From assembly GCA_021324185.1 (NCBI GenBank), contig JAJPJN010000090.1:1-33563 (forward strand): a DNA stretch of 33,563 nucleotides, read 5' to 3'. Numbering within the stretch: position 1 is the stretch's first letter; every line of letters starts with the position of its first letter. The notes under the pieces are model-generated. The model was not told the origin of the DNA, did not search any database, and saw only the letters and a program-made list of their open reading frames with translations. This document shows, in pieces, positions 9,856 to 33,211 of the stretch. Source of the stretch: Terriglobia bacterium. Lineage in GTDB: Bacteria > Acidobacteriota > Terriglobia > Bryobacterales > Bryobacteraceae. Both the position numbers and the translations under genes were made by a program.

Positions 9856-12800
9856 TTAGAACTTCAGCTTCAGCGCCAACTCACCTATGCGCGGCTCTTT
9901 CGCGCTGGTTATCTGTCCGAAGGTTCCGGCGCCCAGGCTGGTGTTAGGGCCGTTGAAATTCGGGTGGTTGAAGACGTTGAAAAATTCGCTCCGGAACTCC
10001 AAATTAAAACGTTCGGTGATGCGAAAGTTTTTATAGAGCGCCATATTGAAATCGATCAGTCCGGGACCCATGAGGGTCCCATTACCCACGTTCCCGAAGA
10101 AGCCCGCCGGCGGTTTAGCGAACGAAGTAGTACTGAACCACTGCAGCAGCGTTTCCGGCATTGTTACAGGGGCGACCAGATTGGGGCGTGTGGCAAGGCC
10201 GGTGTTAGCAAGGCTCATGCCAACGGTTAGCGAACTGCCGCTGTAAATGGATGTCATATCCGAATATTTCCAGCCACCGAAGACCGCACGCTTCCAGCCC
10301 GCCGCCGCTTGGAACCAGGGTAGCGTATATATGATGCTCGTGGTGAACACGTGAGGAGTATTTAGGCTGGAGTTTCCGTAAGCCTGCTGAGGTTGGTATA
10401 CATTTTGAAATCCACCTGTATTGTCGAGGTTGTGGGACCAAGTGTAAGCAACTGTGAGGTAAACGTTGTGCCCTACCGGATGGCGCAGACCTATCTCGAG
10501 AGCAGTCCAATTATCTAGTCCGATTGGTTGATTATAAGTAATCGTGCTATAGCCTTGATATGGAGCGAAGTAAGCGGCTGCGTAACCGGTAGTATTGAGC
10601 AATGGATTAAAATCATACACGCCAAAATTCCGCGGTTGATTGAGATTCAGGGATGTTTGCAAGTCCCGGGCCAGGTCGCCGGCCCCTGCAATAGAAAGGA
10701 GCCAATTAGATCCGAACTGCTGCTGATAACTTACGCTAAAGGATCTGATTCGTCCGATCTTGTAATCCAAAGACTGACCGGCTACCGAACTGGCGGTGAG
10801 CGGCGCGGCGTGGCCACCGACAGGATTAGGGAAGTTTGCATTAATTAAATTTACCTGCTGAAGCACTGGATAGCTCAAGCATCCTTGCGAACAGGCCGCC
10901 CCCATCCCACCGTTCCTGTTATAAGTAATGCCGAAGCCGCCGCGAAGCGACGACCTACCGTTTCCCCAAATATCCCAGGCGAATCCCGCCACGGGGCCAA
11001 CGTAGATATTATGTTTGTTGCTGATGTTGATCGGGATGCCGTTTTCTCCATTAAAGATGATCCCGTTGGCAGGATTATACGTGGGCGTCGGAGTAAGTAT
11101 TCCAGTGGGTGACACGATTGGAGCATTAGCCGGATTGAACACCACTGGATCGAAGTCATCCATATATCCCCTCTGTGCATGTGGAAACGGCATGTAGAAG
11201 AATCGTAGGCCGGCGGTGAGCGTCAGGCGCCGATTTGCTTTCCATTGATCTTCGACGTAAGGCGAAACAATCGGATACTGAATATATTTACGAACCCCGT
11301 CGCTACCTTGCGCAAAGCTAGCGGAGTCGCCAAGTAGATAATCAGCTATTGGATTTCCGCTAAAACTGCCATTGAAGCTCACATCGCCTGTAGTATTGGC
11401 GTTTGTTGCCCACTGGCGCTTAGCTCCAAAGAGCAAGGTGCCGCCGGCTTCAAAAAAATGCTTTCCTACGAGCCAGCTCCAATTGTCGTTTAATGTTTTT
11501 TCCAGATCCGTGGCACGCGGAATAATATTGTTTGCGCTGGTCCCGAATTGCGACCAACCTCCCGTAAACGTGACGTGTGGAAGAAGATTTTGCAGGTAGC
11601 CCCCAGAATAGGGGAAATCTTCGCTATAACCGGAAACCTGCGAAATTTCCGTGATGCCTCCAAAAATATGATTGATGATGTAGCGATTCATCGCGATACT
11701 CACCTGGTTCACCATTGAGGATGTAATGGTGTGGGTCAGTTGCAGTTGAGCAAGCGAGTTGAATGTTTGAAAAATGTCATAGTTAGTAGAAAATGGAGAG
11801 CCCATTCTGGATGCGGCCGGATTGTAGCTATTCTGCCACTCATGGAAATACTCACCTGTCAGGCGAAATTTCGATGAGATGTTTTCGTCGATCTTTACTT
11901 CCTCATCGCGTTGATTTGTAATAGCCGGGTTGACATTGATGTAGTTATTAAATACGTTAGTCTGATCATTCGGCAGCGGGGCAAGAGCGTTGAGATAGGC
12001 CAGAGCAGCCTGATTGATGCGGCTGGCAGGGATCTGATTTCCGGGGAAGAATTGGCCATTTAAAGGATCTTTGATGGTTGTGGCATAGGGACCCGATGTT
12101 GGGAAAAGTCCCTCTCGCATGCCGGCCGTTGGGGAAGCACCCATAATTACCGAACCAACTTTTTGCTTCACCCATTGTTGATTGAAATAAAAGAACGTCT
12201 TCTGCCGGCTCGTGTTGTAAAGGTGAGGGATGTAGACGGGACCACCCAGATTCCAGCCGAAGATATTCCAGTCCAGCACGGAAACGGTGGGGCTAAAAAA
12301 GTTCCGGGCATTGAAATCGGTGTTGCGGAGGAACTCCCACCCACCTCCGTGGAAGGCGTCGGTACCGCCTTTTGTTTGCACAATGACGACGCTCGCTCCC
12401 ATAAGTGTGTAACGCGCATCGTAATTATTCTGCAGCACTTTGATTTCCTGAATCTCGTCAGGATTGGGCATAATCGTAGTCTGCGTCTCGTTGCCGGTGT
12501 TTTCGTTCCAGATTCCGTCGACCGTGTAGAAGCTGCCGCTGGATCCGCCACCATTGACATTCAGGGCATTAGAGGTGTTAAAACCGCCTGTGCCCATAGT
12601 GGCTATAGGCGATGTATTGATAACTCCGGGCATCAGGGAGCCGAGGCCCTGGTAGTTGCGGCCGTTCAGTGGCAGCGTTTCCGCCTCCTGGGCGGAAACC
12701 GTGCTGGAGATGTCGCTGGTGGTTGTCTGAACTTCCGTTGCGTTAGCCAGCACACTGACCGTAGTGGTCAGCTTGCCCGGCTTGAGCACAACATTCAGGG

Positions 12801-13116
12801 TAAAGACGCTTGCCGGCCCCAGGTAAATGCCCGCTTCACTAAATGAATTGAAGCCGGCTTTCGTTACCGTTACTTGATAATCCCCGACGGGCAGTCCGGC
12901 TTCAGAAAAGCGCCCATCACCGTTGGACATAGTTGTAGTTCGGTTTCCGGTAGCGGCATTCACCACACTCACGGCCGCTTGCGGGACCACGGCGCCGGAT
13001 TGGTCGGTGATGGTACCGCTGATCGTACCAGTCGTCATCAATTGAGCGGTACAAAGCTGGGCGGCGGCGGCGAAGCAAGCGGCCAACGCGGCGTGACGTC
13101 GATTTCTTACCAGCAT
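9856..13116 (-). CDS. TonB-dependent receptor, Oar-like, with carboxypeptidase-regulatory domain
   Basis: A 1,086-residue outer-membrane protein. A signal peptide (about 1-24, ending AQLCTAQ) is followed by an Ig-like carboxypeptidase-regulatory domain (GTISGTITDQSGAVVPQAAV through VVLKPGKL, about 28-115). The plug domain comes next (LPLNGRNYQGLGSLMPGV; IQEIKVLQNNYDARYTLMGA) and then a large beta-barrel ending in Phe (ALKLKF). Acidobacteriota carry many such receptors, thought to import plant polymers or other large substrates using TonB energy; the ligand here cannot be told. No glycoside hydrolase or SusD partner is adjacent. The start has a ribosome-binding site GAGGAG and a good promoter at 13164-13192. 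Confidence 0.9.
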   Translation of the reverse strand: MLVRNRRHAALAACFAAAAQLCTAQLMTTGTISGTITDQSGAVVPQAAVSVVNAATGNRTTTMSNGDGRFSEAGLPVGDYQVTVTKAGFNSFSEAGIYLGPASVFTLNVVLKPGKLTTTVSVLANATEVQTTTSDISSTVSAQEAETLPLNGRNYQGLGSLMPGVINTSPIATMGTGGFNTSNALNVNGGGSSGSFYTVDGIWNENTGNETQTTIMPNPDEIQEIKVLQNNYDARYTLMGASVVIVQTKGGTDAFHGGGWEFLRNTDFNARNFFSPTVSVLDWNIFGWNLGGPVYIPHLYNTSRQKTFFYFNQQWVKQKVGSVIMGASPTAGMREGLFPTSGPYATTIKDPLNGQFFPGNQIPASRINQAALAYLNALAPLPNDQTNVFNNYINVNPAITNQRDEEVKIDENISSKFRLTGEYFHEWQNSYNPAASRMGSPFSTNYDIFQTFNSLAQLQLTHTITSSMVNQVSIAMNRYIINHIFGGITEISQVSGYSEDFPYSGGYLQNLLPHVTFTGGWSQFGTSANNIIPRATDLEKTLNDNWSWLVGKHFFEAGGTLLFGAKRQWATNANTTGDVSFNGSFSGNPIADYLLGDSASFAQGSDGVRKYIQYPIVSPYVEDQWKANRRLTLTAGLRFFYMPFPHAQRGYMDDFDPVVFNPANAPIVSPTGILTPTPTYNPANGIIFNGENGIPINISNKHNIYVGPVAGFAWDIWGNGRSSLRGGFGITYNRNGGMGAACSQGCLSYPVLQQVNLINANFPNPVGGHAAPLTASSVAGQSLDYKIGRIRSFSVSYQQQFGSNWLLSIAGAGDLARDLQTSLNLNQPRNFGVYDFNPLLNTTGYAAAYFAPYQGYSTITYNQPIGLDNWTALEIGLRHPVGHNVYLTVAYTWSHNLDNTGGFQNVYQPQQAYGNSSLNTPHVFTTSIIYTLPWFQAAAGWKRAVFGGWKYSDMTSIYSGSSLTVGMSLANTGLATRPNLVAPVTMPETLLQWFSTTSFAKPPAGFFGNVGNGTLMGPGLIDFNMALYKNFRITERFNLEFRSEFFNVFNHPNFNGPNTSLGAGTFGQITSAKEPRIGELALKLKF

Positions 13117-13163
13117 AGGGGGACTCCTCGTATCCGACGCAGTTTTCTACTTCTGTTGCATGT

Positions 13164-13192
13164 ATGGTAGGGTGGCGGAAGACGACTGTCAA
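13164..13192 (-). promoter_or_regulatory. Sigma-70-type promoter of the TonB receptor gene
   Basis: On the minus strand a perfect -35 TTGACA (13187-13192) is followed after 17 bp by TACCAT (13164-13169, four of six matches to TATAAT). The predicted start would give a leader of about 40 bases with a GAGGAG ribosome-binding site before the ATG at 13116. Confidence 0.6.
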
Positions 13193-13222
13193 GAGAAAAG
13201 TGAATCGATTAGAAACACTGAA

Positions 13223-13238
13223 ACGTTCTATAGAACGT
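13223..13238. promoter_or_regulatory. 16-bp perfect palindrome upstream of TonB receptor promoter (putative operator)
   Basis: ACGTTCTATAGAACGT is a perfect inverted repeat 30 bp upstream of the -35 box of the receptor gene. It is flanked by an outer inverted pair CGATTAGA (13206-13213) and TCTAATCG (13255-13262), not quite concentric with it. The layout fits a dimeric regulator acting upstream of the promoter. No matching regulator gene is adjacent. Confidence 0.5.
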
Positions 13239-13317
13239 GTTACGACGAGAAATCTCTAATCGTTTTGCTCTTTTGCGATCTCGATTGGTGAAGGGACACA
13301 CGCCGTTGGCAAAACTA

Positions 13318-13440
13318 CAAAACGGCTTGTGGGGTTTGCGCTAATCGCGCAAAACGGCCTGTGGGGTTTGTTGTAGTCGCGCAAAGCGGCCTGTGGACTT
13401 TGCTTTAATCGCGCACAACGGCCAGCAAAACGGCCTGTGC
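13318..13440. repeat. 32-bp direct tandem repeat, three full copies plus partial copies
   Basis: Full copies are at 13318-13349, 13350-13381 and 13382-13413, sharing a core AAAACGGCCTGTGG and an end AATCGCG, with a few substitutions each. Partial copies follow at 13414-13423 and about 13426-13437. A hairpin TTTGCGC-TAATC-GCGCAAA (13335-13353) spans the first junction. The array lies just past the end of the small CPxC gene and upstream of the TonB promoter region. Confidence 0.85.
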
Positions 13441-13454
13441 GCGGGACGGGAGTC

Positions 13455-13664
13455 CTACTTTGCTTTCTTCTGTTTCTGTTGACCGACGCGGATCTTGAAC
13501 TGCTGCTGTTTCGATTCCTGAAACGCTTTGTGGTCGTGGCGGGCCACCGCGTCTGACAGATACTTTTCAACATCGGTGTCCTTGGGCAGGACAGCCATCA
13601 CAGTAAAATTCTCGTTGCAAGTCGGGCAAAAAGGCCGAAACCGCCTGATGTTCGGAATTGCCAT
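13455..13664 (-). CDS. Small protein with single CPxC knuckle
   Basis: A 69-residue protein that I do not recognise. It has one FCPTCNENF motif near the N-terminus (Cys13 and Cys16), a charged middle (TDVEKYLSDAVARHDHKAF), and a strongly basic Gln/Lys-rich tail (QQFKIRVGQQKQKKAK). The single knuckle could bind metal as a dimer or bind nucleic acid through the basic tail; this is inference. It begins 37 bp after the epimerase stop on the same strand and is likely the last gene of that run. The tandem repeat lies 15 bp past its stop. Confidence 0.65.
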   Translation of the reverse strand: MAIPNIRRFRPFCPTCNENFTVMAVLPKDTDVEKYLSDAVARHDHKAFQESKQQQFKIRVGQQKQKKAK

Positions 13665-13701
13665 ATGCCGTTAGTTTAGCATTTTTGATCGGTTTTTTGG
13701 C

Positions 13702-14598
13702 TCACTCGAGCAGGTTTCGAAGAGCACCCGCTAAATCGGGGTATTTGAATCGAAACCCAGCGGCTAAGGCAGCTTCAGGGATAACTCGCTGGCTTGCCGT
13801 CATGTATCGCGCCAGTTCGCCGAAGGCGAGCCGCAACGCGAACTGCGGAACGGAAAAGAGCGCAGGACGATGCAGCGCCCGGCCGAGCGCATGCGTAAAT
13901 GCTGCATTCGTGACCGGCTGAGGAGAGGTTGCGTTGAGCGGCCCTTCGACGTTCGGAGTTTCGGCAGAAAAGAGCAGAATGTTTATCAGATCCTCAATGT
14001 GTATCCAGGGCATCCACTGTTTTCCGCCGGCGAGACGGCCACCCAAGCCGGAGCGAAAGACGGGCAAAATTTTGGCCAGCATACCACCATCCCTACCCAG
14101 GACGGGCGCGATGCGGAGCAGCACAACTCGTAAACCGAACTCCTTTGCCCGTAAAGCTTCCTGTTCCCATTGCGCGCAGAGGCCGGCAAGAAAATCGTGC
14201 CCACGAGCGCTGGTTTCCGTAATGATTTCATCGGACCTGTCACCGTAGTAGCCCGTCGCCGAGGCGGAGATCAAAACCGAGGGTTTATGGCGCAGCCTTT
14301 CTATGGCTGAAACGAGGCGGCGCGTGGCATCTACACGGCTTTCGTAGATGCGCCGCTTGACCGGTTGGGTCCAGCGCTGGGCGACCGGCTCACCGGCGAG
14401 GTTCATAACGATGTCCACGGTGGGAACGCTATCGAGCGGCGGGGGCTCGCCCGGATTCCACAAATGAAAAGCCGCTCGGGAATCGAGCGACGCGCTGCGC
14501 CTGCGCGCGAGATAATTCACTTCATTTCCGGCTGCCAACAGTTTCGGTACAAGATGGCGGCCGATAAAACCAGTCGCACCGGTGATCAGGTAATCCAT
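13702..14598 (-). CDS. TIGR01777 family NAD(P)-dependent epimerase
   Basis: From the ATG at 14598 the protein is 298 residues: MDYLITGATGFIGRHLVPKL has the Rossmann signature GATGFIG at the very start. An upstream ATG at 14622 would put eight extra residues before it. Family marks include NLAGEPVAQRWT, the active-site-like SASATGYYGDRSDE, LLRIAPVLGRDGGML and MPWIHIEDLINILLF. The C-terminal DUF1731-like part (YMTASQRVIPEAALAAGFRF) is present. The family is a short-chain-reductase-like enzyme of unknown substrate (E. coli YfcH, plant SULA). It follows the NtrX-like gene by 46 bp. Confidence 0.88.
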   Translation of the reverse strand: MDYLITGATGFIGRHLVPKLLAAGNEVNYLARRRSASLDSRAAFHLWNPGEPPPLDSVPTVDIVMNLAGEPVAQRWTQPVKRRIYESRVDATRRLVSAIERLRHKPSVLISASATGYYGDRSDEIITETSARGHDFLAGLCAQWEQEALRAKEFGLRVVLLRIAPVLGRDGGMLAKILPVFRSGLGGRLAGGKQWMPWIHIEDLINILLFSAETPNVEGPLNATSPQPVTNAAFTHALGRALHRPALFSVPQFALRLAFGELARYMTASQRVIPEAALAAGFRFKYPDLAGALRNLLE

Positions 14599-31981: not shown

Positions 31982-32326
31982 GTGAGTGTTAAATTGACGT
32001 CCCGGCAAGTGGGTGATGTGACTGTAATCGATGCAGCCGGACGAATTACGTTGGGGGAAGGCGCAAGCGCGTTTCGCGACATGATTCGAGACCTTGCGGC
32101 CAAAGGGAACAAGAAGCTGCTCTTGAACCTGGGCGAGGTGTCGTACATTGACAGCTCCGGTATTGGCGAGATGGTCTCAGGCTTTACGACCGTCACAAAC
32201 AACGGCGGCCAGCTAAAGCTGGTCGGGTTATCCAAGCGCGTAAAAGACCTGCTGCAAATCACAAAACTGTATACGGTTTTTGAAGTCTATGACGACGAAG
32301 CCGATGCAGTGCGCAGCTTCCACTAG
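31982..32326 (+). CDS. STAS-domain anti-sigma factor antagonist (SpoIIAA/RsbV-like)
   Basis: A 114-residue single STAS domain with a GTG start behind a strong AGGAGG site (seven bases upstream). The phosphorylation loop is VSYIDSSGIGEMVSG; Ser58/Ser59 is the expected kinase target, in the same place as Ser58 of SpoIIAA. Unphosphorylated antagonists bind the anti-sigma kinase and release its target. It follows the anti-sigma kinase and forms a partner-switch pair with it. A phosphatase (RsbU/SpoIIE type) that would complete the switch is not in this window. Confidence 0.92.
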   Translation: MSVKLTSRQVGDVTVIDAAGRITLGEGASAFRDMIRDLAAKGNKKLLLNLGEVSYIDSSGIGEMVSGFTTVTNNGGQLKLVGLSKRVKDLLQITKLYTVFEVYDDEADAVRSFH

Positions 32327-32479
32327 CATCGCCGCCATGCGCACAGAGCGCGCCATTGCCGCATACACGAAACCGGGTATGGCCCTGGAGGCGTAAACCG
32401 AGCGCACAAAAAGGCAGTTGCAACCGTAGTGCGCGATGTATATGAGACAAGTACGGGCTAGCAGGCACTACTACCACAA

Positions 32480-32509: not shown

Positions 32510-33211
32510 ATGCCTGGTTCTGCTGCACAGCCTGTCACACGATTATCTCCGGAAGTCCGGCCGATTGAGATTCTGATTGCCGATGAACTGACCCTCGTTC
32601 GAGAAGGCCTGTCCGCCCTATGTACTTCTCTCGGCGGCTATCGCGTTATCGCGCAAGTTAGTTCTGCCAACGCTGCATTGGCCGAGATCCAACGCCTGCA
32701 ACCCGCCATCGCGCTGCTAGATATGGGGCTGTCCGATCTGGCCGCGACCGAGGTGATCCGGCGCGTTCGCGACAAAGGATTGCGGACGCGATGTGCCGTC
32801 GTTTCCGCTCGCAAAGACCGCAAGATGGTGCTGGAAGTTCTTCGCACCGGCGCCTGTGGCTTTTTGCTCAAGAGCTCAACGGCTGAACAAATGTCAGAAG
32901 CTCTGAGCCAGTTCTGCCAGGGCGGCATTTACGTGTCTCCTCAAATTGAAGTCATGTCGCTGTTTTGCGAGAGCAATGGCAGAAACAATGCCGACGATCC
33001 GCTTGATCTGCTAAGCAGCCGGGAATATCAGGTCTTTTCCCTGCTGGTGGAAGGCGTTCGGGCGAAAGAGATCGCGGCCCGGCTGTCGTTGAGCCCGAAA
33101 ACCGTAGATACTTATCGCTCCAGCCTCATGCGGAAACTCGATATTCACGATGTGGCCGGCCTGGTGAAGTACGCGATCCAACGCGATCTGGCTGATACGA
33201 AAATCGCCTGA
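32510..33211 (+). CDS. NarL/LuxR-family response regulator
   Basis: A 233-residue protein. The receiver domain (about 18-140) has acidic residues in ILIADELTLVREGL (Asp25, Glu26), phospho-acceptor Asp71 in IALLDMGLSD, and a conserved Lys in CGFLLKSST. The C-terminal LuxR helix-turn-helix reads LSSREYQVFSLLVEGVRAKE, then IAARLSLSPKTVDTYRSSLM. It is a typical DNA-binding regulator activated by a kinase, but no kinase gene is adjacent, so its partner is unknown. Its place downstream of the anti-sigma/STAS pair suggests a signalling island, though a 183-bp gap separates them. Confidence 0.92.
   Translation: MPGSAAQPVTRLSPEVRPIEILIADELTLVREGLSALCTSLGGYRVIAQVSSANAALAEIQRLQPAIALLDMGLSDLAATEVIRRVRDKGLRTRCAVVSARKDRKMVLEVLRTGACGFLLKSSTAEQMSEALSQFCQGGIYVSPQIEVMSLFCESNGRNNADDPLDLLSSREYQVFSLLVEGVRAKEIAARLSLSPKTVDTYRSSLMRKLDIHDVAGLVKYAIQRDLADTKIA

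Follow-up and report, generated by a model that had tools for sequence, protein, structure and literature searches.

Among the described systems, those closest to the locus reported here are the REP sequences. In the broad sense outlined in a passage of PMC12306157, these are mostly extragenic, palindromic, short (for example, 14 to 40 nt), repetitive with a shared consensus, and usually transcribed. A dedicated mover has been proposed for the GTAG class of REP-like palindromes and, as far as the relevant section of PMC3733652 goes, not for the others; for instance, the CGTC-tagged REPs are presented there as palindromic repeats without a dedicated transposase. In Acidobacteria and Planctomycetes, the class 3 TnpA-Y1 hairpins are characterized, in part of PMC6006769, as atypical structures that can reach a high copy number.

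Here, we analyze a short tandem array in a stretch of acidobacterial DNA of 33,563 nt (hereafter, the window; the genome that contains it is the host). The array is probably a tandem cluster, decayed in part, that belongs to a REP-like mobile DNA hairpin family, whose mover we did not find and for which the evidence speaks against a RAYT. The hairpin family occurs in the host genus and, patchily, across its Acidobacteriota family. The array and the features of the window that bear on it are as follows:

9856–13116, minus strand: outer-membrane beta-barrel protein gene (PF25183, PF13620), the downstream neighbour
13318–13334, plus strand: decayed unit 1, CAAAACGGCTTGTGGGG, left end lost (Tandem Repeats Finder and direct reading)
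13335–13346, plus strand: spacer/leader TTTGCGCTAATC, which pairs with the next GCGCAAA to form an incidental 7-bp hairpin at 13335–13353
13347–13366, plus strand: decayed unit 2, GCGCAAAACGGCCTGTGGGG, 12 nt short of the intact hairpin
13367–13378, plus strand: spacer/leader TTTGTTGTAGTC
13379–13398, plus strand: decayed unit 3, GCGCAAAGCGGCCTGTGGAC
13399–13410, plus strand: leader TTTGCTTTAATC of the intact copy, 12 nt, T-rich, with AATC at its end
13411–13442, plus strand: intact hairpin element, with outer stem GCGCACA/TGTGCGC, unpaired AC, inner stem GGCC/GGCC, and an 8-nt loop
13455–13664, minus strand: CPxC protein gene, 69 aa, whose 3′ end adjoins the array
32402–32434, minus strand: a second, diverged element of the family, found with a relaxed pattern (covariance model 33.6 bits, E 1.8e-8; itself in the training alignment)

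Tandem Repeats Finder places the array at 13318–13423, with a period of 32, 3.3 copies, 82% matches, and a score of 142, while the next-best of the five rows in the window scores 50; an extra row with a 12-nt period falls at 13413–13435. These values bear out the initial annotation insofar as it described a 32-bp tandem array between two genes with copies that had diverged by substitutions. It had also counted three full copies plus partial ones between 13318 and 13440; the array stands, but the assignment of full and partial copies does not, as the last unit, which had been called partial, is the full-length hairpin, and the range cut this hairpin, which ends at 13442, by two bases. In fact, the 32 bp are those of a decayed unit, equal to the intact one minus 12 nt, and the intact unit lies at the right edge of the array, where it reads GCGCACA AC GGCC AGCAAAAC GGCC TGTGCGC with TTTGCTTTAATC directly 5′ of it. 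Units 2 and 3 read GCGCA-AARCGGCCTGTG, and unit 1 is truncated further. One of the two internal AACGGCC repeats is gone (12 nt), so the left arm of the hairpin is lost in units 2 and 3, and three of the four units in the window cannot form the full stem. Elsewhere in the host genome, arrays of full-length units have periods of 39, 42, 45, and 48 bp.

A perfect 7-bp hairpin at one junction had also been noted, and this structure (TTTGCGC-TAATC-GCGCAAA, 13335–13353) is present and appears in the RNA fold as well, but we judge it to be incidental. The view that the locus is not a CRISPR holds, given that, as read from the sequence, it has no unique spacers and what separates the units are repeated leaders. 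The recurrence of CTAATCG near 13258 is a true match, for which we found no link to the hairpin family; the stretch at 13200–13263, upstream of the outer-membrane protein gene, is palindromic and operator-like, and its outer arm has this CTAATCG of the array leader. The covariance model described below matches 13401–13445 at 57.6 bits (E 6.3e-16; the element itself is in the training alignment). The second element of the window is flanked by a gene for a STAS-domain protein (32009–32326, plus strand) and one for a LuxR-type response regulator (32510–33211, plus strand).

As single-stranded DNA, 13411–13442 folds with −14.3 kcal/mol compared with −7.25 for shuffled sequences (z −4.0, with 0 of 200 shuffles equalling it), and the DNA folds of five element strands gave z below −3 in four cases and −1.9 in one. 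In general, the unit consists of a T-rich leader that nearly always terminates in C (often AAYC), followed by an imperfect palindrome of 25–50 nt whose ends are GCGCACAACGG...CCTGTGCGC. An AC is left unpaired on one arm, and the interior differs from lineage to lineage; the exact copies of the genus measure 29–33 nt, and those of some lineages measure up to 50 nt. In 194 de-duplicated exact instances, a C directly precedes the hairpin in 177 and a T directly follows it in 171, with T-rich sequence upstream, and in 53 of 190, the foot carries an exact AAYC. The ends appear fixed partly because the exact pattern demanded them, and relaxed matches have varied ends.

The alignment of 36 elements from the genus shows a nearly invariant outer stem, while its first inner pair is GC in 18 elements, CG in 12, AU in one, UA in one, and unpaired in four. 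Three of five covariation measures in these 36 elements exceed what was reached by any of 500 shuffles: standard pairs fill 95.2% of the cells (90.6% when shuffled), both partners are altered in 14 cells (6.3 when shuffled), and the covariation score is 0.090 (0.038 when shuffled). The other two, the number of pairs altered on both sides (1) and that of further pair types (5), are not above the shuffles. The first inner pair is formed in 92% of the genus elements compared with 52% after permutation (maximum 76%), and pair 23–33 is unpaired in 10 of the 36. Across all lineages, aligned in a simple register, position 1 is paired in 46% (permuted 27%, maximum 37%) and position 2 is at the chance level; the inner stems of other lineages seem to be longer or shifted. 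In a copy on host contig C98, the next pair outward shows a compensated change (GAGC/GCTC). These observations bear on the proposal that the repeats are an array of binding sites for a nucleoid or regulatory protein, copied by recombination. Near-fixed ends around a free interior would suit a site recognized by its two arms, as would tandem arrays with regular periods of 39–48 bp, but the inner-stem covariation indicates a folded single strand and orthologous positions differ between relatives, and we consider such an array highly improbable.

The hairpin is dispersed in the host genome. Allowing up to one mismatch, AAAACGGCCTGTGG is found at 15 places compared with five for the reversed control, so part of these places are due to chance. 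The exact hairpin pattern (GCGCACAACGG-N4..30-CCTGTGCGC, with the reversed pattern as the control) is found 21 times compared with none, and a covariance model trained on the 36 genus elements (E up to 0.01, with at most 150 candidates scored per genome) matches 57 times in 4.7 Mb, which is fewer than the more than 100 copies that a statement in PMC2817692 gives as usual for REPs. Counting the unit across the genome was a check proposed in the initial annotation, and the counts argue against the chance relic that it had considered. The same model gives 39, 23, 21, 10, 8, 7, 6, 3, 2, 2, and 1 matches in other members of the genus and none in five of the 17 members, while the exact pattern occurs in nine of the 17 and its reversed control in none. 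In a sample of the family, 30 of 160 genomes, representing 17 of 76 genera, contain the exact pattern (control 0), and in a phylum-wide sample of 396 genomes, it was found in two, including the host, with one match of the control. A scan of named GTDB records yielded at least 108 matching stretches; four loci among the 80 matches listed (L126, L128, L150, and L158) are non-acidobacterial by title, were treated as background, and were left out of later counts but kept in the set of 194 instances. Taken alone, the window array resembles a decaying tandem repeat and could be a chance minisatellite (VNTR) without wider meaning; the presence of the same hairpin at dozens of unlinked host loci and in 17 of the 76 sampled genera, with a control of zero, leaves this explanation with almost no probability.

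No Rfam family reached its gathering score over the elements in eight sources, where the only match was a tRNA at 350–422 of the window, and our literature search found no paper on this hairpin sequence family. Clusters hold one to six units. In the host, arrays of 42-bp full-length units stand at the ends of contigs C115 and C146, and contigs C69 and C85 start inside arrays. It is plausible that the array is a variable repeat locus, as had been suggested, considering clusters of one to six units and four contig ends inside arrays, in what is the one assembly of the species. Some subfamilies have been amplified within one genome; for example, in G016, one 31-nt hairpin occupies eight of the 13 exact places, at least two of which share flanks. 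We also observed a related array with a 60-bp unit, similar ends, and a long inner palindrome in another genus (G034, L037), as well as composite repeats of around 150–200 bp with several hairpin-like units in G002 (L066, L071, L076, L081, and L085) and G008 (L308), which seem to spread as a block. As a whole, the earlier reading was right about the repeat and its non-CRISPR nature, and it overlooked the family itself, the complete hairpin, and the indications that the element is mobile.

Most copies lie outside genes. With a hexamer-scored gene caller, used instead of a naive ORF caller that overcalled genes (92% of random positions fell inside them), 22 of 122 clusters are inside predicted ORFs; for random positions in these loci, the corresponding share is 86%. 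Where the context is readable (n = 93), 60 lie between co-directional genes, 18 between divergent genes, and 15 between convergent genes, and in the 60 co-directional gaps, the hairpin runs against transcription in 39 and along it in 21. Read in the opposite orientation, the leader can give GATTAAGGA ahead of a start codon, but close starts occur in both orientations, and we therefore do not claim a Shine-Dalgarno role. Hairpin pairs 150–4000 nt apart bracket a possible gene in 11 cases, eight of which have gaps of 190–440 nt (L025 and L101 being the same site). In G001, copies at L026, L027, and L031 lie within or beside paralogous genes, which presumably resemble four-helix-bundle (S23-like) genes and whose reading frame is apparently disturbed.

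Locations of this kind could also be expected of an element that acts at the RNA level, as an intercistronic or 3′-end stabilizer or processing site of mRNA, which selection would keep intergenic and whose spread would be secondary. Covariation maintains the inner pair in the genus, the RNA fold of the window array has a z of −2.9, and the preference for one orientation in tandem gene gaps (opposite in 39, same in 21) points in the same direction, but this bias is modest, three of the four window units cannot form the full stem, and upkeep of the stem would be equally expected if the DNA hairpin were the substrate of mobility. Copies between closely spaced operon genes, such as rplE and rpsN, would also suit a function in mRNA. 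At this junction of the S10 operon, the element is found in four of the 15 readable members among the 17 of the genus (G001, G010, G011, and G016), with three kinds of interior among the four genomes (those of G010 and G016 are alike). In the 11 other readable members, however, the element is absent and the gap is simply short, which counts against a role in the RNA. In 11 order-level genomes, the best match at this junction is not below five mismatches. G001 also has an array in the gap between rpsN and rpsH, and in both gaps, hairpins lie within an essential operon whose genes remain open. Considering both sides, we regard an RNA-level element as an unlikely explanation.

Differences between orthologous sites also bear on the mobile hairpin that we favour. 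In G010, an element on contig C49 (L063/L234) lies between two copies of the start of rpsN that are 32 nt long and differ by one mismatch, with the downstream copy keeping the gene open. Next to tRNA-Arg(CCT), a second, partial tRNA of 54–57 nt stands beside the element in G014, G016, and MAG SRVP_6, and no second piece of this tRNA was found in 253 nt of 11 other genus members. In G014, one contig with the element and one without it share the same flanks at this tRNA (L262 and L268; C223 and C44); as these are two versions of the locus in one MAG, the bin may mix strains, and the pair could equally be explained by a deletion through recombination between the tRNA copies. A similar arrangement, with 34 nt, is found at a tRNA-Ser of G002. 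In the host, a lone GCGCACAGGG, perhaps half an element, lies around 16 nt before tRNA-Arg(CCT) (L260).

Direct repeats that suggest target duplication accompany a minority of the copies. Repeats of at least 7 nt starting at the hairpin edge flank six of 145 blocks (mean 0.48 and maximum 3 in 1000 permutations), four of which are in or beside arrays or composites (L013, L100, L157, and L179) and two of which are clean single copies (L022 and L092); one further clean case, of 10 nt (TCGTATTAAA), appeared on host contig C15 in a sample of 23 loci (L314). Long flanking repeats occur in 11 of the 145 blocks (0–2 in 20 permutations), of which five look like repeats of arrays or composites (L098, L100, L066, L081, and L132) and six look like duplicated target (L015, L063, L069, L074, L078, and L108), involving a piece of tRNA, the start of rpsN, or a single other site. 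The duplication lengths are 7–10 nt for L022, L092, L157, and L314 and 30–57 nt for L063, L069, L074, L078, L108, and L015. A position-free test for flanking repeats in 91 single copies gave a weak signal (mean 4.0 compared with 3.74, and a maximum of 4.08 in 200 shuffles), while the test anchored at the hairpin edge was clearer at 7 nt or more and not at 4–5 nt. At around nine in ten of the 145 blocks or more, no target duplication was found, so we argue for insertion from this minority together with the presence and absence of copies at orthologous sites.

Copies are also found on predicted phage contigs. Eleven IMG/VR contigs (L315–L325, of which L319 and L320 are apparently one locus in two records) contain an exact copy, and all 11 were matched by the model, which is not independent of the pattern. 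Ten proteins encoded within 2.5 kb on six of these contigs were looked up, and major head, scaffold, head closure, large terminase, and portal families turned up on five of the six contigs; none was found on L315. With exact copies near phage structural genes, phages or proviruses can carry the hairpin. The copies on phage contigs lie between genes or at gene ends, which would also be expected of the RNA-level element discussed above.

The site of the window array provides a further comparison. No Pfam family matches the CPxC protein at E ≤ 0.001, and the outer-membrane protein on the other side of the array is one that we take to be of the Oar/TonB type. Orthologues of the CPxC gene are present in 14 of the other 16 genomes of the genus, as two fragments in G003, and none of the 14 has an element of the family near the gene, the sole match being one with four mismatches that lies 837 nt off in G013. 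A terminator-like hairpin with a T-rich tail follows the stop codon at 2–26 nt in 12 of these 14 relatives (weak in G013); G005 and G003 yielded none. In the host, no such hairpin was found within 110 nt of the gene, and the array stands in that place, which would again fit a function at the 3′ end of the mRNA. The host sequence beyond the array is, by inspection, unlike that of the relatives; with this difference and no element in the 14 relatives, the array is specific to its lineage among the sampled genomes and lies at a synteny break. It had been proposed that the repeats might be a transcription-stop region, but our results do not support an intrinsic terminator: a scan of 13100–13800 found none on the minus strand, where the neighbouring genes are encoded; on the plus strand, its single consensus match adjoins the hairpin at 13443–13456 (shuffle mean 1.0), and the T-rich tract is located 5′ of the hairpin. 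The array is not a canonical terminator.

As for what might move the hairpin, the most obvious candidate is a RAYT tyrosine transposase, in which case the family would be an ordinary REP or REPIN whose RAYT gene is absent from the assembly, has been lost, or acts from afar. The REP-like size, the extragenic location, and a hairpin with unpaired bases agree with this, and Y1_Tnp (PF01797) is present in 38 of the 60 relatives searched, including 12 of 16 congeners. In the host genome, however, no Y1_Tnp was found; the assembly is 96.85% complete in 184 contigs, and fragmented assemblies leave room for a missed transposase gene. None of 30 Y1_Tnp loci, one per genome, had a hairpin, but only five of these came from genus members with exact copies, and we therefore examined a further 30. 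Six congeners combine Y1 genes with exact copies; at all 35 of their Y1_Tnp matches, no element was found with the pattern at up to two mismatches in around 1.5 kb on each side where the contig allows, and the best covariance-model score was 14.3 bits (E 0.056). Y1_Tnp is similarly frequent in genus members with exact copies (six of nine) and without them (six of eight). Foot motifs that mark the known REP classes are likewise missing or infrequent: GT[AG]G stands directly at the hairpin in 0 of 190 instances in either orientation (within 6 nt, in 0 and 1 of 190), CnGA in 18 of 190 in the minus orientation and 0 of 190 in the plus orientation, and CGTC in 2 and 0 of 190. On the features tested, the family does not belong to the RAYT system, and an ordinary REP or REPIN with its RAYT out of sight has, in our view, only a small chance of being correct.

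Returning to a mobile hairpin with another mover, we observe its structure, dispersal, extragenic location, and presence or absence at given sites, and from there we infer that a dedicated factor inserts the copies and that the arrays grow by slippage. A trans-acting factor would recognize the folded ends and insert copies, and insertion would sometimes duplicate target DNA of variable length (7–10 nt, or around 30–57 nt). After insertion, slippage at the hairpins or unequal exchange there might enlarge the clusters, whose units would then decay; the cluster in the window, just past the CPxC gene, could have followed this course, with three units losing 12 nt between internal AACGGCC repeats. 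A bolder proposal, which we offer tentatively and with more doubt than belief, is that these hairpins represent a class of ultra-short mobile DNA, namely single hairpins of 25–50 nt in which the arms are fixed and the interior is free. An unrecognized enzyme other than a RAYT would move them, and at tRNA genes and within ribosomal operons, they would leave target duplications that vary in length; they would also be found in the head operons of phages, which would ferry copies between hosts. The window locus is ordinary as an array and unusual as a family: the family combines common arms in 17 of 76 genera, filled and empty sites, some target duplications, phage carriers, and no attached tyrosine transposase. 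With it, the question of what moves other palindromic repeats becomes testable, as the arms can be used as bait, and comparing the genomes that have the family with those that lack it offers a way to look for the mover gene.

Compared with known systems, the family agrees with REPs in the broad sense in being extragenic (22 of 122 clusters in ORFs against 86%), short and palindromic (as the folds indicate, with 29–33 nt and, in some lineages, 50 nt), and repetitive with a shared consensus (57 model matches in 4.7 Mb). It also resembles the GTAG REPs and REPINs associated with RAYTs, which are likewise short, extragenic, imperfect palindromes with unpaired bases, dispersed and sometimes clustered, with genome-specific subfamilies; in contrast to these, it has no GTAG foot, no adjoining Y1 gene (and none in the host genome), and it forms head-to-tail arrays and shows target duplications at some copies. 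The CGTC REPs, for which part of PMC3733652 gives stems of 8–9 bp and loops of 4–5 nt, have a tag that stands at the foot of our hairpins in only 2 of 190. To the extent that they are described in PMC6006769, the class 3 TnpA-Y1 structures are similar as atypical hairpins with a potentially high copy number in an overlapping phylum, but our family has CnGA in only 18 of 190, in one orientation, and the copies examined have no Y1 gene in their vicinity. MITEs are also small and non-coding, with inverted-repeat ends, and target duplications at some copies are a further likeness; in our family, however, the duplication varies in length and is missing from most copies, and the entire element is one hairpin of 25–50 nt. 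Finally, the GC clusters and double-hairpin elements of mitochondria are mobile short palindromes whose mover is also unclear, and they differ from the hairpin family in the organisms that carry them and in sequence.
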